Positions 1 through 34,557 of a stretch of DNA of 64,000 nt are shown piece after piece (positions within the stretch are counted from its first letter, which is position 1; the number at the start of each line of letters is the position of its first letter). This DNA comes from Spirochaeta cellobiosiphila DSM 17781 (GTDB lineage: Bacteria > Spirochaetota > Spirochaetia > DSM-17781): positions 1-64,000 of the forward strand of contig NZ_AUFW01000007.1 of the NCBI RefSeq assembly GCF_000426705.1, in the 5' to 3' direction. A program made the translations under genes and the position numbers. The notes beneath the pieces are model-generated. The model made no database searches. It was not told the DNA's origin and saw only the letters and a program-made list of their open reading frames with translations.

Positions 1-420
1 ACAATAGATCCTGCACTTTTTAATACTACTGGTTATGCGCCTATGATACCAACAGCAAAAAATCTTTCTGCTAAACAGAATGGGACTAGTTACACAATTA
101 CGTTTTCTGCCAATAGTAATCTTATATATGATGGATGGGTTAATTTCTATGATAAAGATAAAGAGTATGTAGGTATGTATTACTATTTTAGAGATGATAA
201 TAACAATATAAGTAAAGAACTAAACAATGGTTCTCAATTCTATACAGATGGGCAGATAAATCAACTAATCATTAATAATGAAAACATTACCTATTTGGAT
301 AATACTTATTCCTTTAGTGATATTGAATACTTTGTTGTTTTTCTCATAGATGGTGCTCAATACAATAATAATTACTATGATGCCCAGTCAAATTCTGCTA
401 GAACAAAAGTCACTCATTAA
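1..420 (+). CDS. C-terminal part of a paralogous lipoprotein, cut by the left window edge
   Basis: The reading frame is open from base 1, so the gene starts outside the window. The visible 139 residues are the complete C-terminal domain of the lipoprotein family found in four more or less complete copies downstream. Shared signatures are TID near the start, YAPMIPTA, a DGWVNFYD segment (NGYVxFYD in the other copies), FYTDGQIN, and a final DGAQY followed by YDAQSNSAR. The first ATG in frame (base 43) lies inside the conserved YAPM motif and is therefore not the start. No known domain is recognised. The domain is rich in alternating polar and aromatic residues and looks beta-rich. It is followed by a perfect palindrome (441-475). 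Confidence 0.8.
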   Translation, partial: TIDPALFNTTGYAPMIPTAKNLSAKQNGTSYTITFSANSNLIYDGWVNFYDKDKEYVGMYYYFRDDNNNISKELNNGSQFYTDGQINQLIINNENITYLDNTYSFSDIEYFVVFLIDGAQYNNNYYDAQSNSARTKVTH

Positions 421-440
421 TCTATTGGCATTCATCAATC

Positions 441-475
441 TTTTGCTTATTGGGAACTTTTTTCAATAAGCAAAA
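441..475. repeat. Perfect intergenic palindrome, copy 1
   Basis: A 12-bp perfect inverted repeat (TTTTGCTTATTG at 441-452 and CAATAAGCAAAA at 464-475) with an 11-base loop lies 20 bases after the stop of the partial lipoprotein. The same arms recur at 1881-1961. It could act as a weak transcription terminator, but the T-run is in the loop and not after the stem, so an intergenic repeat element is equally likely. Confidence 0.7.
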
Positions 476-567
476 GCAGAATCAATTAGAACGCTTAAAA
501 TCCTATTGTATCAAGACATTATAACAGAATATTGGAGGAACCAGAATTAAAGGTTATAATTGGTACT

Positions 568-1410
568 ATGAGATATTTACTGTTAAGCCTAAGCATCCCC
601 CTATTCTTATTATCTTGTCAAAGTACAAACACAGACAGTATACAGCCTCCAGAAGCCTCTGATTTGATAATAAAAGAGGTAGGTTGGGTTCTAGAAAGCT
701 ATGAAGCTGACTTCTTTGATCCCCCCCTAGACTCAGACACAATTTATATTAAGTGGAGCTTTCTCACCTCAGGATCCTACGAAGATTTGGAATCGGTTGA
801 AGTAAGCGATGGGGTATCCCAATGGACAATGACAAAGGATGATATCATTTGGACAACAAAGAAAGACGGTTTTATTTTTAATAAACGTTTCATGTCAAAG
901 AAAGAGGGAAATAAGCAAGGAGATACCCTAAGGGTAGGAGACTATATTCTCACCTTTTATTTTTCTAACGGCAGCTTCTATAGAAAAATATTCCACATGC
1001 CCATACCTGGTTCAACATCATCTAATCATTATCAATTTGTTACCACAGAGAAACAATTACTCAATAACCCAGATTATGCTCCCATGCTAGCTATGCCGGA
1101 AGAGGTTACGGTTAAAAAGGATACACAAGAACAGACTTTCAACCTAAGGTTCACCATAAACAGCCCTCTGGTGAGAAACGGATTTGTTATCATCTATGAC
1201 AAGGATAAAAAAGAATTAGCCAGTATTGGACTTAAGGCTCCCTTCAACATAGAAGGAAAATTGAACTATTTTAAGTATCCCTATGCGCCGATCCTTGATA
1301 GGGCAGCTTACATAACCATAAATCTGGTAGATGGCTATCAATATGAACAACCTAATCACTATGATGCTAAAGCAACAAGCAGATATTATACGATACAAAC
1401 ATCACATTAA
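568..1410 (+). CDS. Paralogous lipoprotein, copy with a shortened C-terminal domain
   Basis: A 280-residue lipoprotein of unknown function. The start is placed at ATG 568 because it gives a clean signal peptide (MRYLLLSLSIPLFLLSC) with a lipobox ending LLSC. A TTG at 532 opens the same frame further upstream but adds a polar leader. The N-terminal domain carries the family signature VGWVLxxY, then WSF, SxSYEDL, VSDG, GDTLR and PGS. The C-terminal domain starts at YAPMLAMPEE and ends LVDGYQY..YDAKATSR. Between these, about 25 residues holding the DFRN and FYTDG motifs of the other copies are missing or highly diverged. It is the most divergent full-length member, and is followed directly by a second, N-terminally truncated copy in another frame. 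Confidence 0.8.
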   Translation: MRYLLLSLSIPLFLLSCQSTNTDSIQPPEASDLIIKEVGWVLESYEADFFDPPLDSDTIYIKWSFLTSGSYEDLESVEVSDGVSQWTMTKDDIIWTTKKDGFIFNKRFMSKKEGNKQGDTLRVGDYILTFYFSNGSFYRKIFHMPIPGSTSSNHYQFVTTEKQLLNNPDYAPMLAMPEEVTVKKDTQEQTFNLRFTINSPLVRNGFVIIYDKDKKELASIGLKAPFNIEGKLNYFKYPYAPILDRAAYITINLVDGYQYEQPNHYDAKATSRYYTIQTSH

Positions 1411-1411
1411 T

Positions 1412-1867
1412 AACAATGATTACGATTTTATCACCATAGATCAGGATCAAAGGGATCCTGGTTATGCACCAATGATACCCCTGGCAGAAAATATTGATGC
1501 TGAGTATATAACGAACACGGGAGACCTTATAGTAAGTTTCTCCTGCGATAGTCCAATCATCAATAATGGATACATATGGGTCTATGATGAGAATAAAAAA
1601 TACTTAGGAATATCGGATCATTTCAAAGATGATGAAGGAAATATTCCCTTTTCATTGAATGAGGGAACAGAGTTTTATACAGAAGGGACAAGCAATACCT
1701 TTGTTATAAAGGAAGGAGATCTCTCTAAAAATACTAAGAACTCTCAGGTAAAATTCATCTGTGTAGCCTTAACAGATGGTAAGCAGTATTTCGAGGACTC
1801 TTTTGACGCCAGATCTGAGTCAGCTCGTACTCCTGTAATAGGTATTGAATTAGTAACAAACTACTGA
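1412..1867 (+). pseudogene. N-terminally truncated copy of the lipoprotein family (C-domain only)
   Basis: Starting one base after the stop of the preceding gene, and shifted to another frame, the sequence encodes NDYDFITIDQ, YAPMIPLAEN, NNGYIWVYDE, FYTEG, TDGKQY and DARSESARTPV. This is the inter-domain linker plus a complete C-terminal domain. The N-terminal domain and signal peptide are absent. In-frame ATGs exist only inside the preceding gene (1331, 1343 and later), without a ribosome binding site. It is best read as a remnant left by recombination between tandem copies. A programmed or accidental frameshift at 1410 would instead give an N-C-C protein. The C-domain itself has no internal stop, so loss of the front half is recent or the frame is still used. 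Confidence 0.6.
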
Positions 1868-1880
1868 CTCATTTAACCAT

Positions 1881-1961
1881 TTTGCTTATTGGAAACATTT
1901 GATTTTCAATAAGCAGATGGTCTGTTTGCTCATTGAAAACCATTGGAAATCAATAAGCAAA
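1881..1961. repeat. Compound intergenic palindrome, copy 2
   Basis: The arms of the 441-475 palindrome recur in four places: TTTGCTTATTG (1881-1891), CAATAAGCAGA (1907-1917), TTTGCTCATTG (1925-1935) and CAATAAGCAAA (1951-1961). The outer arms are perfect complements. The inner pair is degenerate. The whole could fold as one long imperfect hairpin or as two adjacent hairpins. It looks like a duplicated version of copy 1, again directly downstream of a copy of the lipoprotein C-domain. Confidence 0.65.
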
Positions 1962-1988
1962 AAAAGAAAACCTAGTAAGCCCTTTGAT

Positions 1989-2016
1989 TTGATGAATCAA
2001 TAAAAAGTGATATACT
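1989..2016 (+). promoter_or_regulatory. Sigma-70-type promoter of the lipoprotein gene at 2050
   Basis: TTGATG (1989-1994), a 16-base spacer and TATACT (2011-2016), with a TG one base upstream of the -10 (extended -10). It lies 33 bases before the ATG at 2050, and follows the palindromic repeat. Confidence 0.5.
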
Positions 2017-2049
2017 CTTGTGAAGTTTAATTTAAGGAAGGTTAATCAA

Positions 2050-2979
2050 ATGAATAAAATCATAACATCAGTCACCACTGTACTACTATTAATGATTTTA
2101 AATAGCTGTGCTTCTACGGATACAGCCCAAATGAAAGCGCCTCTTGCATTAAAATATGTTGAACCAGCCCCTCTGGATAATCCCTTTACAGTAGAAAAAG
2201 TTGGTTGGGTCCTTAACCATTACGATAAAGATTTTTGGATAGATCCTGAGGAGTATAATTCCCTCGAAGTAATATGGAGTTTTGCCTATACAGGGGACTT
2301 TGAATCCCTAGCCAATATGGTAATCATAACAGGAGAGGACCGATGGGGACCTTTTTCCAAGGACATAATGCATACTGATGCTGGTGGAACTGTTCTATAT
2401 TTGGATACTAAACTCATTAATAATTTTTTAGGGATGGGCACAGGAGACACACTTCGAACCAAGAATTATCAGTTTGTCTTTTCCAGAAATGATGGAAGCC
2501 TATCTATGATAAGCTTTAATATTCCCGCACCAGGTGAACATAATGCTGGGGACTACGAGTATATTACAATTGCCCCATCATTAGCGGCAGAACCCAGCTA
2601 TGCCCCTATGCTTTCTACAGCAGAGAATATAAAAGCCCGTAGAGAAGAGGACAAAATTCTAATAGATTTTACTATTGATAGTGAAATAGTTTATAATGGA
2701 TATGTAATCTGTTATGATGATATGAGAAATTATGTTGGCATAAGCTATGATTTTCGTAATAAGAACCAATCAATGTCCGAAGACTTAAACTCAAGTCAGG
2801 ACTTCAGGAAAGACGGTTCTCTTAACAATCTGGAATTACATTCAGATGATATAATCCTTGAATCCGGGTATACCATGGATAATATTGAAAAAGTAGTCAT
2901 CGTTCTTACCGATGGTAATCAGTATCAGAATTCCAGTAGTGATTGTAAATCCTTTTCAGCCGCTATAGCAGTAGAATAA
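2050..2979 (+). CDS. Paralogous two-domain lipoprotein
   Basis: A 309-residue lipoprotein of the tandem family. The ATG at 2050 follows AAGGAAGG (2034-2041) and gives a signal peptide ending in lipobox LNSC. A GTG at 2020 is an unlikely earlier start. The N-domain has VGWVLNHYDKDFW, EYNSLEVIWSFAYTGDFESL, GTGDTLRTK and FNIPAPGE. The C-domain has YAPMLSTAENI, FTIDSEIVYNGYV, DFRNKNQ, DGSLNNL and VLTDGNQY. Compared with copies at 2984 and 3954 it has about 20 extra residues between the lipid-modified cysteine and the N-domain. It is probably exposed at the periplasmic face or cell surface. Function is unknown. The stop is only 4 bases before the next copy, so the two are cotranscribed. Confidence 0.82.
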   Translation: MNKIITSVTTVLLLMILNSCASTDTAQMKAPLALKYVEPAPLDNPFTVEKVGWVLNHYDKDFWIDPEEYNSLEVIWSFAYTGDFESLANMVIITGEDRWGPFSKDIMHTDAGGTVLYLDTKLINNFLGMGTGDTLRTKNYQFVFSRNDGSLSMISFNIPAPGEHNAGDYEYITIAPSLAAEPSYAPMLSTAENIKARREEDKILIDFTIDSEIVYNGYVICYDDMRNYVGISYDFRNKNQSMSEDLNSSQDFRKDGSLNNLELHSDDIILESGYTMDNIEKVVIVLTDGNQYQNSSSDCKSFSAAIAVE

Positions 2980-2983
2980 AAGA

Positions 2984-3865
2984 ATGAAGAAGATATTAGT
3001 ATTCGCAACAATTCTATTAATACTTATCTTAACTAATTGTGCTAGTAATGAGCCCCCCCTTCAGGATGACCAATTCACTCCTACACAGGTAGGTTGGGTT
3101 CTTCATCATTATGATAAAAACTTTTGGAATGAACCTGATGACCATAATTCACTGAAGATAGAATGGGCTTTCACTTATACTGGGGATTATTATTCTACCC
3201 TATCAACTCTCGAAATAAGCGATGGGGAACGGGCTTGGAACTATACAAGGGATGATTTGGAATATAGTTCAACTCACATCATAGATTTGACAACAAAAGT
3301 AAGTAATACCTACTATGGTAAAGGAACGAAAGACACATTCAGAACCAAAACTTATCGTTTTACTTTCACAAGAAATAATGGAACTACCGCAACGATTGAT
3401 TTTGATTTACCCGCTCCAGGATCATTAGAAACAGGGGGATATGATTTCATCACTATTGATCCTCAGTTAGCAGAGTTACCTAATTTTGCTCCCATGTTAC
3501 AAACAGCATCGAAGATTACAGCCCATCAATCAGAGAAGGGAATACATGTAGATTTTACTATTGATAGTAATATAGCCTATAACGGTTATGTTGCTTTCTA
3601 TAATAAGAAAGGAGAATATATCGGTTCATCTTATGATTTTAGAACAAATGACCAATTAGTTCGGGAAACACTCAACAGGGGCCGCACTTTTAATACAGAT
3701 GGGACAGCGAACTCAGTAAGTCTCAGAAAAAAAGATATTGATTTCACCCCTGGTAAATCTTTTGAAGATATAGCCGAAGTAGTTGTTATTCTTATGGATG
3801 GAAAACAATATAGAGATTCCAGGTATGATTGCAAATCCTATTCCGCTACGGTACAAGTAGAATAA
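2984..3865 (+). CDS. Paralogous two-domain lipoprotein
   Basis: A 293-residue lipoprotein with signal peptide and lipobox LTNC. The N-domain has VGWVLHHYDKNFWNEP, HNSLKIEWAFTYTGDY, EISDG, YYGKGTKDTFRTK and FDLPAPGS. The C-domain has YDFITIDPQL, FAPMLQTA, FTIDSNIAYNGYVAFYN, DFRTNDQ, FNTDGTANS and VILMDGKQY, then YDCKSYSA. It lies 4 bases after the preceding copy with no strong ribosome binding site, which suggests translational coupling. The close similarity to the copies on either side indicates tandem duplication. No biochemical role can be read from the sequence. Confidence 0.82.
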   Translation: MKKILVFATILLILILTNCASNEPPLQDDQFTPTQVGWVLHHYDKNFWNEPDDHNSLKIEWAFTYTGDYYSTLSTLEISDGERAWNYTRDDLEYSSTHIIDLTTKVSNTYYGKGTKDTFRTKTYRFTFTRNNGTTATIDFDLPAPGSLETGGYDFITIDPQLAELPNFAPMLQTASKITAHQSEKGIHVDFTIDSNIAYNGYVAFYNKKGEYIGSSYDFRTNDQLVRETLNRGRTFNTDGTANSVSLRKKDIDFTPGKSFEDIAEVVVILMDGKQYRDSRYDCKSYSATVQVE

Positions 3866-3951
3866 TAGAAAATGATGGATAAGTGTATCCTGATGAAGCT
3901 AACTATGATACTGGTTCAGAAACATCCTTCATCCCTGTAATAAGGAAATAA
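3866..3951 (+). pseudogene. Decayed tail of a further lipoprotein copy
   Basis: In one frame (3874 onward) the short gap reads DG, stop, VYPDEANYDTGSETSFIPVI and a few further residues to a stop at 3949. This parallels the end of the truncated copy (DGKQYFEDSFDARSESARTPVI): a DG-x-x-Y motif, a YD/FD pair, a serine-rich stretch and PVI. It seems to be the last 25 codons of a lost paralogue, with an internal stop. The match is short, so chance cannot be fully excluded. Confidence 0.45.
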
Positions 3952-3953
3952 AA

Positions 3954-4841
3954 ATGAAAATATCTACTGTTTTAATAAACTCAGTCCTGCTAATAACAAT
4001 ACTTATTGGGTGCAAGACGGCCCAGCCTGATCAATTAGATAAGTCATTCACGGTTACAGATGTGGGATGGGTTATTAAACACTATGATAAGAACTTTTGG
4101 GATACTCCTAGAGAATATAATAGCCTTCAAGTTAATTGGTCATTTGGCTTCACTGGGGATTATGAATCCCTGGACTATTTAGATATTAGTGATGGAGACA
4201 GTCTCTGGGAGTTGTTCACTAAGGAAGATATGCACATCAGTGATAACGGGCTAGTGCTCATATTGGACCGGAACATGTCAAACTCCTTTTATGGAAAAAG
4301 GACTGGTGACACGATTCGAACAAAGACTTATCAGTTCACTTTCACAAGAAAAGATGGAAGTACTTCAAGTATTGACTTCGCTATTCCTGCACCTGGTTCA
4401 AAGAATGTAGGAGAATATAACTACATTACCATTGACTCGGAATTAGGAAAGTCTCCTCAATATGCGACCATGTTACCAACAGCATCCTCTATAGAAGCCT
4501 ATAAAACAGATAATGATATTTCAGTAAGTTTTACGATTAACAGCAAAATAGCTCATGATGGATATTTAGTCTTCTATTCAGAAGAAGAAGACTATGTAGG
4601 ATTAACTTTAGACTTTAGGAATGCTAATCAATTAATATTTGGCAAACTCAACTACGGACAGGATTTCTACACCGATGGAAGACTTAATCAAGTACTCTTA
4701 ATGGAAAAGGATATCAAATTCGCTCAAGGATATTCCCTTGACGACATCAGTTCAGTCATCGTAGTCATCATGGACGGAGCTCAATATGGGAATGGTAAGT
4801 TTGACGTTACTTCCTATTCCGCCTCTAAACGAGTAGAATAG
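3954..4841 (+). CDS. Paralogous two-domain lipoprotein
   Basis: A 295-residue lipoprotein. The ATG follows AAGGAAA (3943-3949). The signal peptide ends at lipobox LIGC. The N-domain has VGWVIKHYDKNFWDTP, EYNSLQVNWSFGFTGDYESL, DISDGDSLW, FYGKRTGDTIRTK and FAIPAPGS. The C-domain has YNYITIDSEL, YATMLPTASSI, FTINSKIAHDGYLVFYS, DFRNANQ, FYTDGRLNQ and VIMDGAQY. It is the last member of the array in the window. The radical SAM gene starts 8 bases downstream, so the two may share a transcript. Confidence 0.82.
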   Translation: MKISTVLINSVLLITILIGCKTAQPDQLDKSFTVTDVGWVIKHYDKNFWDTPREYNSLQVNWSFGFTGDYESLDYLDISDGDSLWELFTKEDMHISDNGLVLILDRNMSNSFYGKRTGDTIRTKTYQFTFTRKDGSTSSIDFAIPAPGSKNVGEYNYITIDSELGKSPQYATMLPTASSIEAYKTDNDISVSFTINSKIAHDGYLVFYSEEEDYVGLTLDFRNANQLIFGKLNYGQDFYTDGRLNQVLLMEKDIKFAQGYSLDDISSVIVVIMDGAQYGNGKFDVTSYSASKRVE

Positions 4842-4849
4842 CTCCCTAT

Positions 4850-6376
4850 ATGCGCCTATTATTCATCAATCAGCATACAGGAAGTCGTACCTTCCCCCTA
4901 GCCTCGGCCTCTCTGGCCTCCACCATTGAACAGGAACTACCTGAAGTTCTTCTTGATATCGAGGAAATAGGTCCTGACTTTGGGCTAGAGGATTATCCTT
5001 CCCTCTTTGCCCAAGCCATTCCTGATGTCATTTGTCTGACCATTTATATCTGGAGTGTTCCCGGATTGAGCCAGTTAGGAGAATGGATCAAAGCCCAGTA
5101 TCCTCAGGTCCTGATCTTGGCGGGAGGCCCAGAGATCACCGCCGATCCGATAGGATATGCTCAGAAGTCTTATATAGACCTCGCCCTACCTGGGGAGGGG
5201 GAAGCGATCATTGCCCAAGTCATCAAAGACTTGGACAATTCAGATGATAAGGCTCAAGTATTAAGTAAATACGCAGAACACAAGGGATCCTATCTGGTGG
5301 AAAATCTGGATACACTGCCTTCTCCCTTTACCCTATCAGCCTTATCAGAACATCCTTATGAAGATATGGTTTGGGAGTTGACCAGAGGCTGTCCCTTTAA
5401 ATGCCATTTTTGTTTTGAATCTAAAGGGAATGGGAAGCTGCGAGGGAAGTCCCTGGATAAGATAAGAGAAGAATTAAGACAACTCCAAGAGAGGAATACT
5501 AGAGAACTATTTATCCTGGATCCTACCTTTAATTATAAACCACAAAGAGCAAAGGATATTCTGAAGCTCTTTATCGAAGAAGCTCCTGACATCCATTACA
5601 ACATCGAAGTACGCTCTGAGTTCCTTGATGAGGAGCAAGCTTGGTTATTCAGCCAATTCAACTGTAGCCTTCAAATCGGGCTCCAGAGTGCCAATCCTAG
5701 CATCACAAAAAACATAGGGCGTCCCTTTGATCCAGATCAGTATCAGAATCAGCTGAGCTTACTCAATGAGGCTGGTGTTGTTTATGGAATCGACCTGATC
5801 TATGGCCTTCCGGGAGACACTCTGGAAGGATTCTGGAATAGTGTGGAATTTGTTCTGGATTGTAAACCGAATCACATAGATGTTTTTCCTCTCATGGTTC
5901 TCCCTGGGACCACTTTGTCTGATACAGCTAGTAAATTAGGCTTACGTTATCTTCAGGAAGCCCCCTATCTGATTCTGGACCGGGACGGATTTGACAAGGA
6001 AGATTTAACCAAGGCCGAGAGCATTATGCATAATGTGAATCAGCTCTATAATCAGGGCAAGGCCGTTATGTGGCTGGACTTTATCCTGGATGAATTTGAT
6101 TTAGGCTATAGGGATGTTTTCTTCGATTATTCTCTCATCCCTGATGGTAGACCTCTTCAGGAAATCTTTCACTTACTGGACTATCTGGGAGAGAGGGCCC
6201 AACGTCAAGAGATACTCCCTATCATTAAAGACATGGTCAATGTTCTATATCATCTGGATGAGGAAGACCAAAGCCTACTCGAGGGATGTACCTATAATCC
6301 TCAAATTCTCTGGGAACAGATGGAACAGGGGATTGGGGATCCTGAGGAATTGATGTTCTTTGTTCCATTAAAATAG
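4850..6376 (+). CDS. B12-binding radical SAM protein (DUF4080-type)
   Basis: A 508-residue cytoplasmic Fe-S enzyme. The first 140 residues form a Rossmann-like cobalamin-binding domain with the PDVICLTIYIW and ILAGGPEITADP segments typical of radical SAM enzymes with an N-terminal B12 domain. The SAM domain has the 4Fe-4S motif CPFKCHFC within ELTRGCPFKCHFCFES, then IGLQSANP and DLIYGLPGDT. The C-terminal 150 residues resemble the DUF4080 region that often follows such domains. The substrate is not known for this subfamily. It follows the lipoprotein array by 8 bases, but a functional link is not shown by the sequence. A hairpin terminator is not obvious after the stop. Confidence 0.85.
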   Translation: MRLLFINQHTGSRTFPLASASLASTIEQELPEVLLDIEEIGPDFGLEDYPSLFAQAIPDVICLTIYIWSVPGLSQLGEWIKAQYPQVLILAGGPEITADPIGYAQKSYIDLALPGEGEAIIAQVIKDLDNSDDKAQVLSKYAEHKGSYLVENLDTLPSPFTLSALSEHPYEDMVWELTRGCPFKCHFCFESKGNGKLRGKSLDKIREELRQLQERNTRELFILDPTFNYKPQRAKDILKLFIEEAPDIHYNIEVRSEFLDEEQAWLFSQFNCSLQIGLQSANPSITKNIGRPFDPDQYQNQLSLLNEAGVVYGIDLIYGLPGDTLEGFWNSVEFVLDCKPNHIDVFPLMVLPGTTLSDTASKLGLRYLQEAPYLILDRDGFDKEDLTKAESIMHNVNQLYNQGKAVMWLDFILDEFDLGYRDVFFDYSLIPDGRPLQEIFHLLDYLGERAQRQEILPIIKDMVNVLYHLDEEDQSLLEGCTYNPQILWEQMEQGIGDPEELMFFVPLK

Positions 6377-9102: not shown

Positions 9103-9107
9103 CAATT

Positions 9108-9249
9108 GATTTTTCGGGGCAAGGTGAGCTGTTAAGCAACAGCAATTCCTGAATGGCGGTATAGCCCGCGACTCGAACCTGCAAAGGCAGGTAAGACTGA
9201 ACTGGTGAGAATCCAGTGCCAACGGTACAGTCCGGATGGAAGAAAAATC
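9108..9249 (+). promoter_or_regulatory. FMN riboswitch (RFN element)
   Basis: The conserved RFN blocks occur in order: CGGGGCAAGGTGAG, AATTCCTGAATGGCGGTA, AGCCCGCGACTCG, GGTGAGAATCCAGTGCC, and GTACAGTCCGGATGGAAGA. Basal stem P1 is GATTTTTC (9108-9115) with GAAAAATC (9242-9249). FMN binding to such aptamers shuts off riboflavin synthesis genes, in agreement with the ribD-ribE-ribBA-ribH operon downstream. The expression platform appears to be the hairpin at 9321-9340, which covers the ribosome binding site of ribD. Confidence 0.95.
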
Positions 9250-9320
9250 CAACACACACATAGAATACCTGGGTCCATAGGGGTGGTCTCATCTCTATGA
9301 TCCTGTATATGCCCACCGAA

Positions 9321-9340
9321 AACTCCTGTCCAAAGGAGTT
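9321..9340 (+). promoter_or_regulatory. Hairpin sequestering the ribD ribosome binding site
   Basis: AACTCCT (9321-9327) is a perfect complement of AGGAGTT (9334-9340), with a 6-base loop. The right arm contains most of the AAAGGAG ribosome binding site (9332-9338) of ribD, which begins 9 bases later. When folded, ribosomes could not reach ribD. This indicates translational, not transcriptional, control by the FMN aptamer 70 bases upstream. No T-run follows the stem. Confidence 0.7.
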
Positions 9341-9347
9341 CACTAAA

Positions 9348-10427
9348 ATGTCACAGATATTTATGGAGAAGGCTCTGGCCTTAGCCCGTAAAGGTTATCC
9401 TGCGCCCAATCCCTATGTAGGAGCTGTCCTCGTCAAAAAGGGACAGATCATTGGTGAAGGGTATCATTCGCAAAGGGGCAAAGCCCATGCGGAAGTAGAA
9501 GCCTTAAACCATACCACTCAGGATCCTGGAGGAAGTAATCTCTATGTCACCCTTGAGCCCTGTAGTTATGAGGATGATAGCAAACTCACCCCTTCCTGTA
9601 CAAAGCTGATTATCCAAAAAGGAATTCAAAAAGTGATCATTGCCTCCCTTGATCCGAATCCCAGGGTGGCAGGTCAGGGAGTGAAATCTCTTCGGGAACA
9701 GGGGATCGAAGTCGAAGTAGGGCTCATGTCAAAGGAAGAGTCTTTGCTGAATAGGGCCTATCATTATTATCGTCACAGGCAAACCCCTTGGGTCCATATT
9801 AAACAAGCGGTGACCTTGGAAGGCTACATTGCCACAAGTCCACCAGCCAGGACAGCCTTAAGCGGTGATCAGGCTTTAAGGAGGATACACAAACTCCGGG
9901 CCTCTCACCAGGCTATTCTTGTCGGAGGGAACACGGTCATTCTGGATAATCCCTGTCTCGATAATCGTTCAGGAGACGGGCCGTCTCCCTTAAAGATCAT
10001 CCTGGAAGGGCACAAAGATCTCCCTCTTACCCTTAAAGTATTCCAAGAAGTCAGGCCCCACTCTCTACTGCTTATAGCCAGAGAACCAAGAGCTTATCAT
10101 TCCCCTCTTGAGAAGCTCGGTATTGATATCCTTTATCACCAATCTGAAGATCTCTCTGGATTACTTAATGTCCTGGGAAAGAGAGGTATCATTAGTCTAC
10201 TCGTGGAAGCGGGTACTAAGCTCGCTTCCAGCTTATGGAGGGAATCTTTAGTGAATGAACTGACCCTTATTCAATCACCTTTCACTTTAGGACAGGGGAC
10301 TCCCTTTCTCAAAGAGGATGTTCCCCTAGATCTGCGATCCTCCTGGATGGTGAACCCTCCCGAGCTTTGGGGACAGGACTGTCTTATGAACTGGATACAC
10401 AAGGATTCCCTATGTTTACAGGCATAA
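9348..10427 (+). CDS. ribD: Bifunctional riboflavin deaminase/reductase
   Basis: 359 residues from ATG 9348, selected because AAAGGAG lies at 9332-9338; an in-frame ATG at 9297 would put the regulatory hairpin inside the gene. RibD deaminates the pyrimidine formed from GTP and reduces its ribose side chain. The deaminase domain (first 145 residues) has HAEVEAL and TLEPCSY...TPSC zinc ligands; the last block has two to three extra residues relative to the common PCxxxGxTPPC spacing. The reductase domain has KQAVTLEGYIA, ILVGGNTVILDNP and LLVEAGTKLASS. First gene of the FMN-controlled operon, overlapping ribE by 16 bases. Confidence 0.95.
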   Translation: MSQIFMEKALALARKGYPAPNPYVGAVLVKKGQIIGEGYHSQRGKAHAEVEALNHTTQDPGGSNLYVTLEPCSYEDDSKLTPSCTKLIIQKGIQKVIIASLDPNPRVAGQGVKSLREQGIEVEVGLMSKEESLLNRAYHYYRHRQTPWVHIKQAVTLEGYIATSPPARTALSGDQALRRIHKLRASHQAILVGGNTVILDNPCLDNRSGDGPSPLKIILEGHKDLPLTLKVFQEVRPHSLLLIAREPRAYHSPLEKLGIDILYHQSEDLSGLLNVLGKRGIISLLVEAGTKLASSLWRESLVNELTLIQSPFTLGQGTPFLKEDVPLDLRSSWMVNPPELWGQDCLMNWIHKDSLCLQA

Positions 10428-11026
10428 TACAGGACTTGGGACGTGTTGAGGAGATACAGAGGAAAGGTAAATCCTTTAGCTACTGCATCCATACAAATCT
10501 GGAAGAGGATCTACCAGTAGGAAGTTCTCTGGCGGTTAACGGAGTATGCCAGACGGTCGTAAAAATGGTCAACCATAGTATCCATGTGGAGGTTTTAGCT
10601 TCAACCTTGGAGAAAACAAACCTGGGATGTTTAAAAACAGGTTCTCCTGTGAACTTGGAAAGAGCCTTGAAGATGTCTGATTATCTGGATGGACATCTGG
10701 TTCAGGGACATGTAGAGACAACAGTCGTACTCCAGGCCCTAACCTCTTCAGGACTCGGACATATCCTACGATTTACCAAACCACAGAAACTCTTTGGTCT
10801 GATACCAGAAGGGTCTATCTGCCTGGATGGAGTAAGTCTCACGATCAGTGCCTTAGGTTATGACTATCTGGAAGTACAGATCATCCCTGAGACATGGAAG
10901 AGGACCCTCTTCCATACCAGAAGGCCTGGTGATCATATCAATATAGAAACAGATATACTCCTTCGCCGGGAATCAAAAGAACACAGTGGTGTTACAAAAG
11001 AAAAATTACAGTTATGGGGGTATTAA
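10412..11026 (+). CDS. ribE: Riboflavin synthase alpha chain
   Basis: 204 residues from ATG 10412 (MFTGIIQDLG, the canonical N-terminus), inside the end of ribD, with AAGGA 12 bases before it. The enzyme converts two dimethylribityllumazines to riboflavin and one pyrimidine. The two repeated lumazine-binding domains are visible: SLAVNGVCQTV with YLDGHLVQGHVE, and GSICLDGVSLTIS with GDHINIETDIL. The length and order ribD-ribE-ribBA-ribH match the well-known Bacillus-type operon. Confidence 0.95.
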   Translation: MFTGIIQDLGRVEEIQRKGKSFSYCIHTNLEEDLPVGSSLAVNGVCQTVVKMVNHSIHVEVLASTLEKTNLGCLKTGSPVNLERALKMSDYLDGHLVQGHVETTVVLQALTSSGLGHILRFTKPQKLFGLIPEGSICLDGVSLTISALGYDYLEVQIIPETWKRTLFHTRRPGDHINIETDILLRRESKEHSGVTKEKLQLWGY

Positions 11027-11030
11027 TCCT

Positions 11031-12206
11031 ATGAAAATAACAACAGAGCAAGCTATAGACCTATTGAAGGATGGTCAAATGATCATTCTAACTGATGACA
11101 AGAACCGAGAAAATGAAGGAGATATTCTCTTTCTGGCTCATAAAGCACAGAAAGAACATGTGGATTTCTTAACACGGGAGGCCAGGGGCTTAATCTGTGT
11201 AGCCTTAAGTCCTGAAAGGGCAGATCAATTCCAACTTCTTCCCATGGTGACCCATAACGAAAGTGTACATAAGACAGCTTTCACCCTATCAGTTGATGCC
11301 AATAATGGAGGAACAGGAATAAGCGTTCATGACAGATGGGAAGCCATTAAGGCTTTAGGAGCCGACCAGCCTGACAGGAAAAGCCTTGTGTCACCGGGAC
11401 ATGTCTTTCCTCTAAGGGCTCAAAAGGGAGGATTATGGGTACGACAGGGACACACAGAAGGGGCTGTGGCCCTGGCGGAATTAGCACAGGAACAACCGGC
11501 AATGGTCATCTGTGAGATTCTGGGAAAGGGAGAAGACATGGCTAGAGGTCAGGAACTCATAGACTTCGCCAAGACTCATCACCTGGGAATCCTTTCGATG
11601 AATGAGCTCCAGGACTATCTCGTCAAAGGAACAGCCCGCACCTTGCTCCAGACAGAATGGGGAGAATTGGTGATGGAAACCTACCCTCCAGAACATCCTG
11701 AACAGGAACCACCTTTTCTCCTGTACTCTCCCCATATTGATTGGGAAGAAAGCTTTGACCTACGCATTCATTCAGAATGCTTAACGGGAGAAGTATTAGG
11801 CTCACGCCACTGTGACTGTAGAGAACAACTCCAACAATCAATAAAGCACATCAGCAGAACAAAGGGAGCGCTCCTGTATCTGCGACAGGAAGGTCGGGGA
11901 ATCGGACTAGCAGAAAAGATAAAAGCTTATGCCCTCCAACAGGAGGGACAAGATACTTATGAGGCCAATGAAAGTCTCGGACATGCTCCGGATAGTCGTG
12001 ACTATCATTATGCCGCACGCATACTAAGAAGCAAAAAGGTATCAACCTTTAAACTTTTGACAAATAATCCAGACAAAGTAGAGAACATGCGCGCTCAGGG
12101 ATTTCAAATTGAAAGACTATCCTGGGAGATAGAAGCGAACGATATTAATCGTTCTTACCTAAAAACAAAGAAAATCAAATTCCATCATCACCTGCAAGGA
12201 GTATAA
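11031..12206 (+). CDS. ribBA: 3,4-dihydroxy-2-butanone-4-phosphate synthase / GTP cyclohydrolase II
   Basis: 391 residues from ATG 11031, five bases after ribE, preceded by GGGGGT. The N-terminal half (about 200 residues) is Rib[12 protein letters not shown] binds metal, followed by [19 protein letters not shown] and [13 protein letters not shown]. The C-terminal half is RibA with zinc cysteines in [31 protein letters not shown] and the LLTNNPDKV substrate loop. Together the two activities supply both precursors of lumazine. An in-frame GTG at 10986 lies within ribE and is rejected as start. Confidence 0.95.
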
Positions 12207-12208
12207 AG

Positions 12209-12670
12209 ATGACAGAGATAATAGGACAATTAAACATAACAGAAGCAAAGGTTGCCATTGTCATTGGCAGATTCAATTCCCTTATCACAGAACAGCTATT
12301 AGAAGGAGCTATTGACGGCCTGACACGACATGGATTAGCTAAAGAAGATATTACCCTTGTCAGAGTACCAGGAGCTTTTGAGATTCCCCTTATGGCTCAA
12401 AAACTGGCCCGAACCTCCTCTTTTGATGCCATTCTTTGCTTAGGTGCAGTAATTAGAGGGAACACACCTCACTTTGATTATGTATCTGCAGAAGTATCCA
12501 AAGGAATTAGTCAGGTCAGTTTAAAGGAAAATCTACCAATCATATTTGGTGTTCTTACTACAGACAATATGGAACAGGCTTTGGAGAGGGCAGGAGTCAA
12601 ATCAGGGAACAAAGGCTTCGATGCGGCCTTAACAACTATTGAAATGATTAATCTCGGAAGAAGTTTGTAA
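12209..12670 (+). CDS. ribH: 6,7-dimethyl-8-ribityllumazine synthase
   Basis: 153 residues, the normal length. It condenses the RibD and RibB products to lumazine, and forms icosahedral or pentameric assemblies in known members. Motifs are [28 protein letters not shown] and [16 protein letters not shown]. The ribosome binding site GGAG lies at the end of ribBA, two bases upstream of the start region. Last gene of the operon. Confidence 0.96.
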
Positions 12671-12740: not shown

Positions 12741-13642
<902 letters not shown>

Positions 13643-29049: not shown

Positions 29050-32000
29050 TTGAAACGTTTTTATTTAATGACCATTGTGTTGGCTTTAAGTCTTATGGCT
29101 TGTCAACAACAGGCAAAAGTGTTGATTCCTGCCGATTCTAATGTCGTTCAAGCTCATACCTCTGGACTAATTGATAGACATAGTAGTGTCAAAGTACTTT
29201 TTGTGGATCCTGTTGTTGAGGATGACCTTATAGGTCAAGATATTGCAAGTCCCTTTGAATTTTCTCACAATATAAAAGGGGAAGCAAAATGGACCAATAA
29301 TAATCTATTAGAGTTCATACCGAAAACAGAATTGCCTATAGATGAAACAATACAGGTTAAAGTAAGTTTAAATGATTTGCTACCTAATAAAAATATAGAA
29401 GATTTTTCCTTTAATTTTCATACTATCCTACCTACAGTTGAATTACTATCTAACAGACTTGAAACGGCGGAAGATAGTGATGATATTATGAATTATTATG
29501 GTGAGTATCAGTTCTCTGAAGCTCAAGATATAAACCTTTTAAAGAGGGTTACCTCATTATCCAATGGAATTAAAGATGAACAAATAATTTGGACAGAGGA
29601 AGGAAATAACAAATATCGACTCATGGTAAGTCAGCTTCCTAAAATAGAGTCAGATCAAAAAGTAAAATTGAAATTAGAGTTAAAGACCCTCGATATTAAA
29701 GAAAACTTACAATCTGAATTTACCATTCCTGCCCTTGGTAGTTTTCATGTAGCACAGGTATCACCAATCAGACAGGATAGTGAATATATACAGGTTGAAT
29801 TTACTGATAGTCTTAATCTGGAGCAAAACCTGGAAGGGTTGATTAAAACAGGGAATGAGACTGACAATTTACGTTTTGAAATAGATAAGAATATTGTAAA
29901 GGTATATTCCACAACAAAGTTCAAAGGTAAAGTTGATTTATACCTAGATAAATCCATCAAAAATGTAAGCGACAATAAGTTAGGACACCCCCAAACACGA
30001 AAAGTATTCTTTCCCCGGGAAATTCCAGAAGTTAGATTTTTAGGTAAAGGAAACATTCTACCTACAACTCAAGGGGCAACATTGCCTATTGAAACAAGAA
30101 ATCTTAATGGGGTAATGATAGAAGTTACTCATATCCCGGATCATAACATCCTTCAATTTCTCCAAATCAATGATTATAACGGTGACAAGGAGTTATATAG
30201 AGTTGGTAAAGTCGTTTGGCGAGACACAATACCTCTTGAGTGGGATTCCTCTAAAACTGATATATGGGTACGTCATGGTTTAAACCTAGAGCCTTTATTA
30301 AGAAAATACCCTGCTGGAATGTTTAGATTCAGACTTACATTTACCCATGATCAAGTAGAATACCACGATGGTAGTTATACAGAAAATCCTGACAGACAAG
30401 AAAATAATAATGTATTTGAGTCAGATTCAGGAGAAGCAGCTGAAACAAGTTACTGGGACAATTGGCAACCAAGTTATGGAAGCTGGCGATATAGAAAATA
30501 TAGAAAAGATCCCTCCCACTTCGCTTATTACATGAAATGGGGTGATCACGATATCACACAGAGTAAGAATATACTAATATCTGATATAGGGGTGATGGCA
30601 AAACAGGATTTTAGCGGCCAATATTATATAAGTGCGACAGATGTTAAAACAGCTGGGCCATTACCTAATACTCAGCTATCATTTTATGACTTTCAGAAAA
30701 ATCTATTAGATCAAGGGACAACAGATGGAAATGGATTTTACCTATACAAAAAAGATACATTACCAAGATTTCTAGTAGCTCAAAACAAGAATCAAAAAAC
30801 TTACATGAAGCTGGATCAGAATAATAAACTATCCATTAGCCACTTCCCTGTTGAAGGGGTTAAAAACTTAGAAGGCTTCGATGGTTTTATATTTGGAGAA
30901 AGGGGAGTTTGGAGACCTGGAGACACTATCCATTTAAATTTTATTCTGGTGGATTACCAAAAGACCCTTCCTTCCAGTCATCCCGTATCCTTAATGGTAT
31001 ATAATGCCCAGGGGAAACTGGCATACAGAGAGACTCAGAACAAATCTACTGATGGATTTTACTATTTCCCTTTTGTTACAGAGTCTAATGCACCTACAGG
31101 TAACTGGACAGCTAAGATAAAAGTGGGAAATAGATCTTTTGAAAAAATACTCAAAGTAGAAACAGTTAAACCTAATCGTCTTAAAATAGACCTGAACCTG
31201 GAAGATTCTGAAAAAGGACTATCGGGAAATACCATTCGAGGACAGTTACACTCAGAATGGTTACATGGGGCTTCAGCTCCTAATTTTGAGGCAGAAGTTA
31301 AAGTTAGTTTTGTACCGACTGCTACCCGATTTACAGAATATCCAGAATACACCTTTGAAGACGCTTCCAGATCCTTCAAAGTGGAAGAACAAGAATTTTT
31401 TGAAGGGAATCTGGACAAGGAAGGAAACGCTGATATTTACAAGAGAATATATTTAAACGGTACAGCACCTGGTAAGTTAAAAGCATCCTTTCAGACTCAA
31501 GTTTTTGAGCCTTCAGGAGACTTTAGTACTTCATACACAAGTTATGATTACTGGCCTTATGATGAATATGTTGGAATAAAAACTCCAAAAGGTGACAAAG
31601 CTAGAGGAATGCTTTTGACTGATAAAGAACACCCTTTAGATATTGTGATGGTGGATAGCCAAGGAAAACCCATAAATCAGGGGCAAGTAAAAGCAGAATT
31701 ATACAAGATAAACTGGCGATGGTGGTGGGAAACAGGTTCAGAAGATCTTGCCAATTATGTCAGTCGAAATAACCTCAAACCTATTAGCTCTGGATATGTG
31801 AAAATTAATAACGGAAAAGGGTCTTGGAACTTTGAAGTAAAATACCCGTCTTGGGGTCGTTATATGTTACGAGTTACTGATACAAAGGGAAATCATTCAG
31901 CTAGTAAAATTGTTTATATAGATTGGCCAGGATGGGCCGGTCGTGCACAAAAAGACGGGGGAAGTGGAGCTTCCATGTTGATGATGACAACAGACCAAGA

Positions 32001-34557
32001 CAAGTATAATGTTGGTGATACTATTAACTTAAACATTCCAACATCTCACCAAGGTCGAGTATTGGTTACATTAGAAAGCAAAGGGGCCATCATATCCCAA
32101 GAGTGGATTAGACCTAAGAAAGAAAACACTATCTATAGCTTTAAAGCAAAATCGGAGATGGCACCTAATATTTATGCCCATGTAACCTATCTACAACCTC
32201 ACCTTCAGACAGCTAATGATCTTCCTTTGCGGCTTTATGGAGTGGTGCCTATCTATGTAGATAACCCGGCCTCTCATCTCTATCCGGAAATCCTATCAAC
32301 TGAAGTATTTAAACCGGAATCAGACGTGTCTATTACAATCAAAGAAAGAACTGGAAAAGGAATGACCTACTCCTTAGCTGTAGTTGATGAAGGATTATTA
32401 GGTTTGACAGCCTATAAAGCACCTAATCCTTGGGGACATTTTTATCAAAAGCAGTCTTCTAATTTGTCTACCTGGGACATATACGATTACATCTTGAATG
32501 CTTATTCAGGGAAATTAAATACATTACTCGCTATCGGTGGTTCAGATGGAATTAAGAAAGGTGGTGGATCAGAAGTCAATAGATTCAAACCTGTCGTCAA
32601 AGTCTTTGCTCCTGTAACCTTAGGTCCAGGAGAACAAAAAACTCAAACATTTAAAATGCCTCAATATGTAGGAGCTGTTCGAATAATGGTTATTGCAGCC
32701 AAAGAGCAATCTTTCGGTGTAGCTGAGAAATCTGTAAAGGTTAAAGACGACTTAATGGTGTTGGGGACCTTACCAAGAACGGTTGGTCCAGAAGAAGAGG
32801 TAGAGGTCCCAGTTACAGTGTTCAGAATGAATGATAACATTAAGGACGTTAGTGTGGCACTTCGCGTTCAAGGTCCTGCAGAAATCATTGGAGAGAATAG
32901 AAAATCCATTTCTTTTGATCATGAAAATGATAAATCTACTAGTTTTAAGATCAGAATACTTAATGAGTCAGGTCATATAACAACAACCCTATTAGCCTCT
33001 TCTGGAAGCAATACAGCTATCAATAAAACTGACGTTCCTATCAGAATACCCGCAGTTACTACAACTAGAACAGATACACAACTATTACAACCTAATGAAA
33101 CATGGAGACGTGAAGTTAATTTCTTCGGGTACAAAGGGACTAACGGAATTAAACTTGAACTGTCACAAATGCCACCCATAGATATTGAAAGACGATTGGA
33201 TTATCTCATTCGCTACCCCCACGGTTGTATAGAACAAACAACAAGTTCTGTATTCCCCCAAGTATATTTAGATAAATTTGTGGATTTAACTCCTGAGAAA
33301 ATAAATCAAATACAAGACAACATAAAAGCAGGAATTGAGAGACTGGGAAGCTTTCAAACTCTTGAGGGAGGCTTTTCCTACTGGCCTGGCCAAAGTCATG
33401 TTAATAATTGGGGTAGCAATTATGCAGGCCATTTCTTGCTGGAGGCAAAAAGTCGTGGTTATGCTATCCCAACAGGATTGTTACAAGGATGGCAGGCCTA
33501 CCAGAAAAAAACAGCTAATACATGGCAAGGTACTAGCAAAGGTTCCATAGCTGATCAAGCTTATAGACTTTACACATTGGCTCTAGCAGGGGAAGGTCAG
33601 ATAGGTGCTATGAATCGCTTGAAAGAACAGGACAACTTACAAGGTGCTGCACTTTGGAGATTAGCATCAGCCTATGCGTTGATAGGACAAAAAAGGATTG
33701 CTAGTTCCATGATTAGTAATGCCGGAATATCAATTGATGATTACGTAGAGACTTCTGGTACTTTTGGATCAAAAACCAGAGATGAGGCGATGATACTCGA
33801 ATCTGCCTTGTTGCTGGATAGAAACAAGGAATCCTTTAACTTGGCTAAAACATTGGCCAATAGCCTTAGTAGTCAAGACTATATGAGTACCCAAACAACA
33901 TCCTATGCACTTATTGCTATGGCAAAGTATTCCCTTTCTCAATCGGAAAATAGTCCGATCAATGCATTTTATAGCTATAATAACCAATCAGATCAGATCA
34001 CTACAGATAAGAATATTGTGATGAGAGACTTCTCAGTTAATGAGGATAGTAAGGTAGTAGAGATCAAGAACACTGGTAAAAACCCTCTTTATCTCAGACT
34101 ATTCACAACAGGAATACCCCTCAAAAAAGAAGAAACTCCTATTAGTAAAGGTCTAACTATGGATGTTCGTTATCAGGATCTTAATGGAAGAAGTGTTAAT
34201 CCTGGCGTGAGTTTTAAAGGCCAAGATATCAAAATAAAAGTGACCTTAAGAAATCGGACAAGAAACAAAGTAGAACATTTAGCCTTAACACAACTGATTC
34301 CCACTAGTTGGGAAATCTACAATGAACGAATGAGTCTTGGAGATGGTGTTAAAAATAGTGGATATGAGTATAGAGACATTAGAGACGATAGAGTATTAAC
34401 ATACTTTTCTTTAAATGCAAATGAATCAAAAACTTTTGAAGTACTAGTCAATAATGCCTACTCTGGAACCTATTACCTTCCTATGATCAAAGCAGAAGCT
34501 ATGTATGATAATTCTATTGAAGCAGTGGTCCCAGGATACTGGCTAGGTCGTAAATAA
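29050..34557 (+). CDS. Bacterial alpha-2-macroglobulin lipoprotein
   Basis: 1835 residues. TTG start with AAAGGAG 8 bases upstream. A signal peptide ends LMAC followed by QQQ, giving an anchored lipoprotein in the periplasm. MG-type beta domains, the bait region around residues 780-1000, and the macroglobulin block FAPVTLGPGEQKTQTFKMPQYVGAVR are visible. The thioester motif GCIEQ (C1393, Q1396) is intact within YPHGCIEQTTSS, followed by the alpha-helical toroid (FQTLEGGFSYWPG). Such proteins trap incoming proteases and guard the cell wall. The start of pbpC is directly adjacent, the classic A2M-PBP1C pair known from proteobacteria. Confidence 0.95.
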   Translation: MKRFYLMTIVLALSLMACQQQAKVLIPADSNVVQAHTSGLIDRHSSVKVLFVDPVVEDDLIGQDIASPFEFSHNIKGEAKWTNNNLLEFIPKTELPIDETIQVKVSLNDLLPNKNIEDFSFNFHTILPTVELLSNRLETAEDSDDIMNYYGEYQFSEAQDINLLKRVTSLSNGIKDEQIIWTEEGNNKYRLMVSQLPKIESDQKVKLKLELKTLDIKENLQSEFTIPALGSFHVAQVSPIRQDSEYIQVEFTDSLNLEQNLEGLIKTGNETDNLRFEIDKNIVKVYSTTKFKGKVDLYLDKSIKNVSDNKLGHPQTRKVFFPREIPEVRFLGKGNILPTTQGATLPIETRNLNGVMIEVTHIPDHNILQFLQINDYNGDKELYRVGKVVWRDTIPLEWDSSKTDIWVRHGLNLEPLLRKYPAGMFRFRLTFTHDQVEYHDGSYTENPDRQENNNVFESDSGEAAETSYWDNWQPSYGSWRYRKYRKDPSHFAYYMKWGDHDITQSKNILISDIGVMAKQDFSGQYYISATDVKTAGPLPNTQLSFYDFQKNLLDQGTTDGNGFYLYKKDTLPRFLVAQNKNQKTYMKLDQNNKLSISHFPVEGVKNLEGFDGFIFGERGVWRPGDTIHLNFILVDYQKTLPSSHPVSLMVYNAQGKLAYRETQNKSTDGFYYFPFVTESNAPTGNWTAKIKVGNRSFEKILKVETVKPNRLKIDLNLEDSEKGLSGNTIRGQLHSEWLHGASAPNFEAEVKVSFVPTATRFTEYPEYTFEDASRSFKVEEQEFFEGNLDKEGNADIYKRIYLNGTAPGKLKASFQTQVFEPSGDFSTSYTSYDYWPYDEYVGIKTPKGDKARGMLLTDKEHPLDIVMVDSQGKPINQGQVKAELYKINWRWWWETGSEDLANYVSRNNLKPISSGYVKINNGKGSWNFEVKYPSWGRYMLRVTDTKGNHSASKIVYIDWPGWAGRAQKDGGSGASMLMMTTDQDKYNVGDTINLNIPTSHQGRVLVTLESKGAIISQEWIRPKKENTIYSFKAKSEMAPNIYAHVTYLQPHLQTANDLPLRLYGVVPIYVDNPASHLYPEILSTEVFKPESDVSITIKERTGKGMTYSLAVVDEGLLGLTAYKAPNPWGHFYQKQSSNLSTWDIYDYILNAYSGKLNTLLAIGGSDGIKKGGGSEVNRFKPVVKVFAPVTLGPGEQKTQTFKMPQYVGAVRIMVIAAKEQSFGVAEKSVKVKDDLMVLGTLPRTVGPEEEVEVPVTVFRMNDNIKDVSVALRVQGPAEIIGENRKSISFDHENDKSTSFKIRILNESGHITTTLLASSGSNTAINKTDVPIRIPAVTTTRTDTQLLQPNETWRREVNFFGYKGTNGIKLELSQMPPIDIERRLDYLIRYPHGCIEQTTSSVFPQVYLDKFVDLTPEKINQIQDNIKAGIERLGSFQTLEGGFSYWPGQSHVNNWGSNYAGHFLLEAKSRGYAIPTGLLQGWQAYQKKTANTWQGTSKGSIADQAYRLYTLALAGEGQIGAMNRLKEQDNLQGAALWRLASAYALIGQKRIASSMISNAGISIDDYVETSGTFGSKTRDEAMILESALLLDRNKESFNLAKTLANSLSSQDYMSTQTTSYALIAMAKYSLSQSENSPINAFYSYNNQSDQITTDKNIVMRDFSVNEDSKVVEIKNTGKNPLYLRLFTTGIPLKKEETPISKGLTMDVRYQDLNGRSVNPGVSFKGQDIKIKVTLRNRTRNKVEHLALTQLIPTSWEIYNERMSLGDGVKNSGYEYRDIRDDRVLTYFSLNANESKTFEVLVNNAYSGTYYLPMIKAEAMYDNSIEAVVPGYWLGRK

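Follow-up and report, generated by a model that had tools for sequence, protein, structure and literature searches.

Knowledge of spirochaetal surface biology comes mostly from a few pathogens. The Lig proteins of Leptospira, like other Big lipoproteins, combine a lipid anchor with Ig-like β-sandwich domains. The PFam54 array on lp54 of Borrelia contains 6–11 tandem, strongly diverged paralogous lipoproteins, which arose by lineage-specific duplication and include some pseudogenes; its member CspA binds Factor H (PMC11389397). In Bacteroidota, the DUF4249 family (PF14054) comprises lipoproteins of a length similar to those described below, which act as partners of TonB-dependent transporters. 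For its member BT2173, an operon shared with the transporter BT2172 of this type was reported to be conserved (PMC11003636).

Here we analyzed a stretch of 64,000 nucleotides (hereafter the window) at the start of contig NZ_AUFW01000007.1 of Spirochaeta cellobiosiphila DSM 17781, which opens with an array of lipoprotein genes. By its behavior, the PFam54 array is the closest analogue: both are spirochaetal and consist of head-to-tail, diverged lipoproteins, although we do not claim that they are related. The PFam54 array is plasmid-borne in a pathogen transmitted by ticks, whereas the contigs that carry the present array are long (395 and 506 kb). A lipid anchor followed by Ig-like domains, as in Lig, is predicted for the array proteins; however, Lig has many Big2 repeats, whereas the array proteins have exactly two dissimilar domains and match no Big model of Pfam. 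In evolutionary terms, the array adds a further example to a pattern that is already known; it is not a new kind of system. As a diverged array outside those pathogens, it raises the question of whether lipoprotein arrays are a general trait of spirochaetes or a product of host interaction.

Organization of the lipoprotein array

Six homologous units are arranged head-to-tail in one direction (+) at positions 1–4841 of the window (Table 1). When the unit 6 protein was used as query against the entire assembly, seven pieces were recovered, namely the six units of the window and the end of contig C25, at E-values ranging from 4e-90 to 6e-19, and no other family members were found in the genome. 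The tandem array that an earlier note had read from the DNA is thus borne out, with a similarity far above chance, and the motifs given there for the N-domain (VGWVLxxYDxxFW ... IPAPG) and the C-domain (YAPML ... DGxQY..YDxxSxSA), as well as a lipobox Cys in every full copy, were found as described.

The count of six units also stands, but unit 1 is not the tail remnant for which it had been taken. The first base of the window is the first base of contig C1, and window positions 1–256 repeat exactly the 256 bases with which contig C25 ends (505861–506116), a sequence seen only at these two contig ends. Once C25 and C1 are joined via this overlap, unit 1 becomes a complete lipoprotein of 294 residues; the apparent remnant is therefore the complete first copy, cut by a contig edge, and its interpretation as a decayed gene was rejected. 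The junction is an assembly inference for which the exact overlap provides strong evidence. Accordingly, the array comprises five complete genes (units 1, 2, 4, 5 and 6), not four, in addition to one C-domain-only unit (unit 3). It is AT-rich, with a GC content of about 0.36 compared to about 0.45 downstream.

Table 1. Features of the array and its flanks (window positions unless a contig is given)
Feature	Position	Strand	Remarks
Unit 1, C-terminal part of 294-aa lipoprotein	1..420	+	Start at C25:505396; 1–256 is the assembly overlap
Palindrome 3' of unit 1	440..476	.	17-bp stem; RNA hairpin z = -5.8
64-bp leader	483..546	+	94% identical to leader before unit 1 (C25:505256-505319)
Unit 2, 280-aa two-domain lipoprotein	568..1410	+	Lipobox LFLLS-C, Cys at 616–618
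Unit 3, linker and C-domain	about 1409..1867	+	Without signal peptide and N-domain
Double palindrome between units 3 and 4	1880..1962	.	REP/BIME-like; related sites C25:421983, C25:470485, C2:90206
Unit 4, 309-aa two-domain lipoprotein	2050..2979	+	Good ribosome-binding site
Unit 5, 293-aa two-domain lipoprotein	2984..3865	+	4 bp after unit 4
Unit 6, 295-aa two-domain lipoprotein	3954..4841	+	Structure predicted
B12-binding radical SAM protein	4850..6376	+	8 bp after unit 6

The spacers vary in length: 147 bp between units 1 and 2, none between units 2 and 3, 182 bp between units 3 and 4, 4 bp between units 4 and 5, and 88 bp between units 5 and 6. These sizes, together with the palindromes in the spacers, suggest three transcription units, which would consist of unit 1, units 2–3, and units 4–6 with the radical SAM gene, the latter being probably co-transcribed with unit 6. 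The palindrome behind unit 1 is probably a terminator or a REP-like element. Unit 2 has full length, but its C-domain is shortened and the most divergent. The mechanically called open reading frame of unit 3 opens at position 1331 and overlaps the end of unit 2; it seems that unit 3 lost its signal peptide and N-domain through a deletion ending near the stop codon of unit 2.

The 64-bp leader is present upstream of units 1 and 2 only, with no further occurrence found in the genome. It is the single near-identical piece among the copies and is non-coding, and the proteins of units 1 and 2 share 29% identity; this implies either a constraint on the leader or a recent conversion. The REP/BIME-like palindromic element (TTTGCTTATTGAAAAC...CAATAAGCAAA) occurs at five intergenic sites of the genome, mostly in pairs, and no RAYT-type transposase (PF01797) that might stand behind the palindromes was found. 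In addition, C7 tracts at positions 721–727 (unit 2) and 3053–3059 (unit 5), both near the 5' ends of AT-rich coding sequences, are possible slippage sites.

A two-domain lipoprotein family

Searches of the array copies against Pfam, NCBIfam and PHROGs gave no match above cut-off, and none of the copies matched a PDB sequence. The family profile, searched against the sequences of the PDB chains, which include CspA of PFam54, recovered no chain at E ≤ 10 save one unrelated chain (0.046). No confident family match for both domains was found in the profile searches, so that the earlier view of the proteins as belonging to no known family holds for these databases, with the exception of one distant relative. 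That protein, L038 of genome G144, exceeds the Pfam cut-off of DUF4249 over residues 56–208, about half its length (E-value of 1.6e-7, 31.6 bits).

This match raises the possibility that the family is a distant, transporter-associated branch of the DUF4249 lipoproteins, and two TonB plug domains are indeed present in the genome that carries the array. However, neither an array copy nor any member besides L038 matches the model, and none of 100 Spirochaetota genomes yielded a member over the cut-off. Moreover, a TonB plug domain was not found in three of eight carriers (G140, G144 and Treponema putidum), and no TonB-dependent transporter was recognized beside the family gene in the fetched loci. 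Membership of DUF4249 was rejected, as the array copies fall below the Pfam gathering cut-off and lack a TonB transporter neighbor, and even a distant branch appears quite improbable.

In the family alignment, the lipobox column holds Cys in all 14 rows having a residue there; unit 3, which lacks the entire N-terminal part, is the exception to the two-domain architecture. The conserved positions are Trp39 and Trp85 of the N-domain, followed by Phe193, Gly203, Asp274, Ser287 and Ser289 of the C-domain (unit 6 numbering). From these sequence comparisons, we regard the unnamed and undescribed two-domain lipoprotein family, absent from Pfam and NCBIfam, as real and new. An origin of the two domains by internal duplication was rejected (profile–profile probability below 1%), as was a phage, plasmid or viral origin, in view of the absence of matches in IMG/VR, phage, plasmid and PHROGs searches.

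Predicted structure of unit 6

The AlphaFold model of unit 6, built on an alignment of 10 sequences, has a pLDDT of 80.9 and a pTM of 0.78. It consists of two all-β domains, the N-domain (residues about 32–146) and the C-domain (residues about 168–295), whereas the signal and linker region is disordered. A Foldseek search of the PDB with this model returned 27 matches at E ≤ 0.001. Most of these proteins contain Ig/FnIII domains in tandem; examples are cytokine receptors, NCAM and titin. The TM-scores are low, not exceeding 0.32 for the full-length protein when normalized by the query, and point to no specific homologue. The C-domain alone (pLDDT of 85) gave weak Ig-type matches, none of them at E ≤ 0.001, and the search against viral structures returned generic Ig-like and similar β-rich proteins only. 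Altogether, two Ig-like β-sandwich domains are a credible prediction, in which the fold class is supported and a specific relative is not. As the Ig fold is generic, the function does not follow from it. The predicted all-β fold also differs from that of the PFam54 proteins, which are α-helical.

Divergence of the copies

All five complete copies group in a single clade (support of 100/100; 99/98 in another tree), indicating that the expansion took place within this lineage, in agreement with the local, lineage-specific duplication proposed before. Their pairwise amino-acid identities are 28–49%, and the fourfold-degenerate sites differ at 0.50–0.80, which is near saturation, with p3 > p1 > p2. 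In a neutral simulation, the frame of unit 6 stayed open in 12 of 1000 runs at 10% divergence and in none of 1000 runs at 33%. Near-saturated fourfold sites in frames that are still open indicate that the copies are old and were kept by selection. No near-identical coding blocks are shared between the copies, whose identity over short pieces does not exceed 78%.

At the sequence level, divergence, open frames and missing homogenization together speak against dosage, against decay as a general process and against antigenic variation of the cassette type. The earlier note had suggested repeated duplication and decay under selection for variation or dosage. Dosage is contradicted by the low identities and the near-saturated sites. 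Decay is not a general feature either, since unit 1 merely meets a contig edge, five copies are intact where neutral frames would carry stops, and only unit 3 lost a domain. As for selection for variation, recombining cassettes do not fit in the absence of near-identical coding blocks, whereas divergence into different specificities is possible.

Variable surface antigens that evade predators, phages or hosts, either through recombination or through phase variation at the C7 tracts of units 2 and 5, would account for a tandem array including one truncated unit and for the excess of C7 tracts, with two observed against 0.04 expected from shuffling of the array. Against this, besides the missing homogenization, C7 or G7 tracts are also found in other genes of the window (four in the other 59 kb; P of about 0.04 by a Poisson estimate), and no C7 tract of the array is longer than seven, so that the C7 evidence is not convincing. 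We therefore consider variable antigens unlikely. Still less likely, indeed very improbable, is a repertoire of Ig-like recognition lipoproteins in which each copy has its own specificity and two are switchable via C7, a counterpart of the Borrelia arrays outside that group.

Distribution and neighborhoods of relatives

Profile searches detected full-length relatives in several genera of Spirochaetia; at a threshold of E ≤ 0.001, 17 out of 395 genomes from this class had a match. Carriers make up about 4% of the sampled genomes, and about 95% of the sampled Spirochaetota genomes lack the gene. Among the carriers are T. putidum, T. vincentii, an oral Treponema MAG and a rumen Spirochaetaceae MAG, in addition to four genomes outside the class (G408, G419 with two hits, G461 and G532). 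The family is thus present in oral Treponema species and thinly spread over Spirochaetota. N-domain-like lipoproteins of 220–240 residues without the C-domain were found in other genomes at weaker scores. Two variants depart from the basic architecture: in the T. vincentii protein, a long stalk of low complexity separates the lipobox from the domains, and the G532 protein is fused to a YncE-like β-propeller.

The copy number across the phylum is mostly zero or one and twice two, compared to six here, as scored with at most six candidates per genome, a limit by which dispersed extra copies may be missed; the closest genomes compared with the array host were of the same class. Constant single-copy orthologues in relatives, which the earlier note had named as evidence against its reading, were not found in that form. 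None of the other fetched loci has a tandem arrangement; each neighborhood outside the genome of the window holds a single copy.

No conserved operon partner was found across at least 12 neighborhoods, leaving no partner from which a function could be inferred. Homologous proteins of 41% identity are encoded near the family gene at two loci, L038 7350–8492 (G144) and L042 18117–19259 (T. denticola group, 8 kb away). B12-binding radical SAM proteins of 39% identity are encoded in two distantly related genomes, by the gene downstream of unit 6 and by L081 3325–5145 in G419.

The array proteins could in principle be substrates of this adjacent radical SAM enzyme in a modified-protein cassette, given that 8 bp separate the enzyme gene from unit 6 and that the G419 homologue of the enzyme lies 2.8 kb from the family gene. 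However, the G419 homologue is on the opposite strand and the enzyme is absent near the family gene at all other loci examined; besides, such enzymes are common, and the lipoproteins have no small precursor-like motif. The case for a conserved partner, made by the window and G419, was judged too weak, and a substrate role is most unlikely.

A periplasmic housekeeping lipoprotein for envelope assembly or transport, with the array reflecting neutral build-up of paralogues or several envelope substrates, deserves more weight, though it is on balance rather unlikely. The Treponema relatives are conserved single-copy genes with 43–84% identity, less like a hypervariable antigen, and two ABC exporter genes directly precede the family gene in the T. 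denticola/T. putidum group, so that an envelope housekeeping role could apply there. Nevertheless, the exporter is not adjacent to the gene in T. vincentii or other carriers, and the rarity of the gene among Spirochaetota speaks against a housekeeping function.

Putative function

The explanation that we favor, to which we give about an even chance, is that the array encodes diverged envelope lipoprotein paralogues with two Ig-like domains and differing binding specificities. Each protein would have a signal peptide with a lipobox Cys and a short linker, followed by two consecutive Ig-like β-sandwich domains, and the lipid, as predicted from the sequence, would anchor it in a membrane. From a family that usually has one gene, several old tandem duplications would have produced the five complete paralogues and the C-domain-only unit, and the copies would have been retained by selection and then diverged. 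The two Ig-like domains may bind an extracytoplasmic ligand or partner, such as a surface polymer, another cell or an envelope component, with the paralogues binding different things. Surface exposure, the binding role and the difference in specificity are what we infer here. The stalk of T. vincentii and the propeller of G532 would fit a role in binding or display outside the cytoplasm. Through the single-copy genes of Treponema, the function can be tested experimentally in laboratory strains.

Other features of the region

Contig C25 carries a pair of neighboring DUF4349 genes at a distance of about 7.4 kb on the upstream side of unit 1 (L009 5856–7963); one of the two products is a predicted lipoprotein. 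Downstream of the array, an FMN riboswitch (Rfam RF00050, 95 bits) is located at window positions 9106–9251 (+), upstream of a riboflavin operon (9297–12670) with ribD, ribE, ribBA and ribH-like genes. A perfect TGGTCG hexamer repeat of 6.8 copies (13069–13109) codes for a stretch of His-Asp within a membrane protein that resembles a metal transporter. Furthermore, an α-2-macroglobulin-like lipoprotein adjoins a penicillin-binding protein 1C-like gene at positions 29050–36900, as recognized by eye, which is a known pairing.
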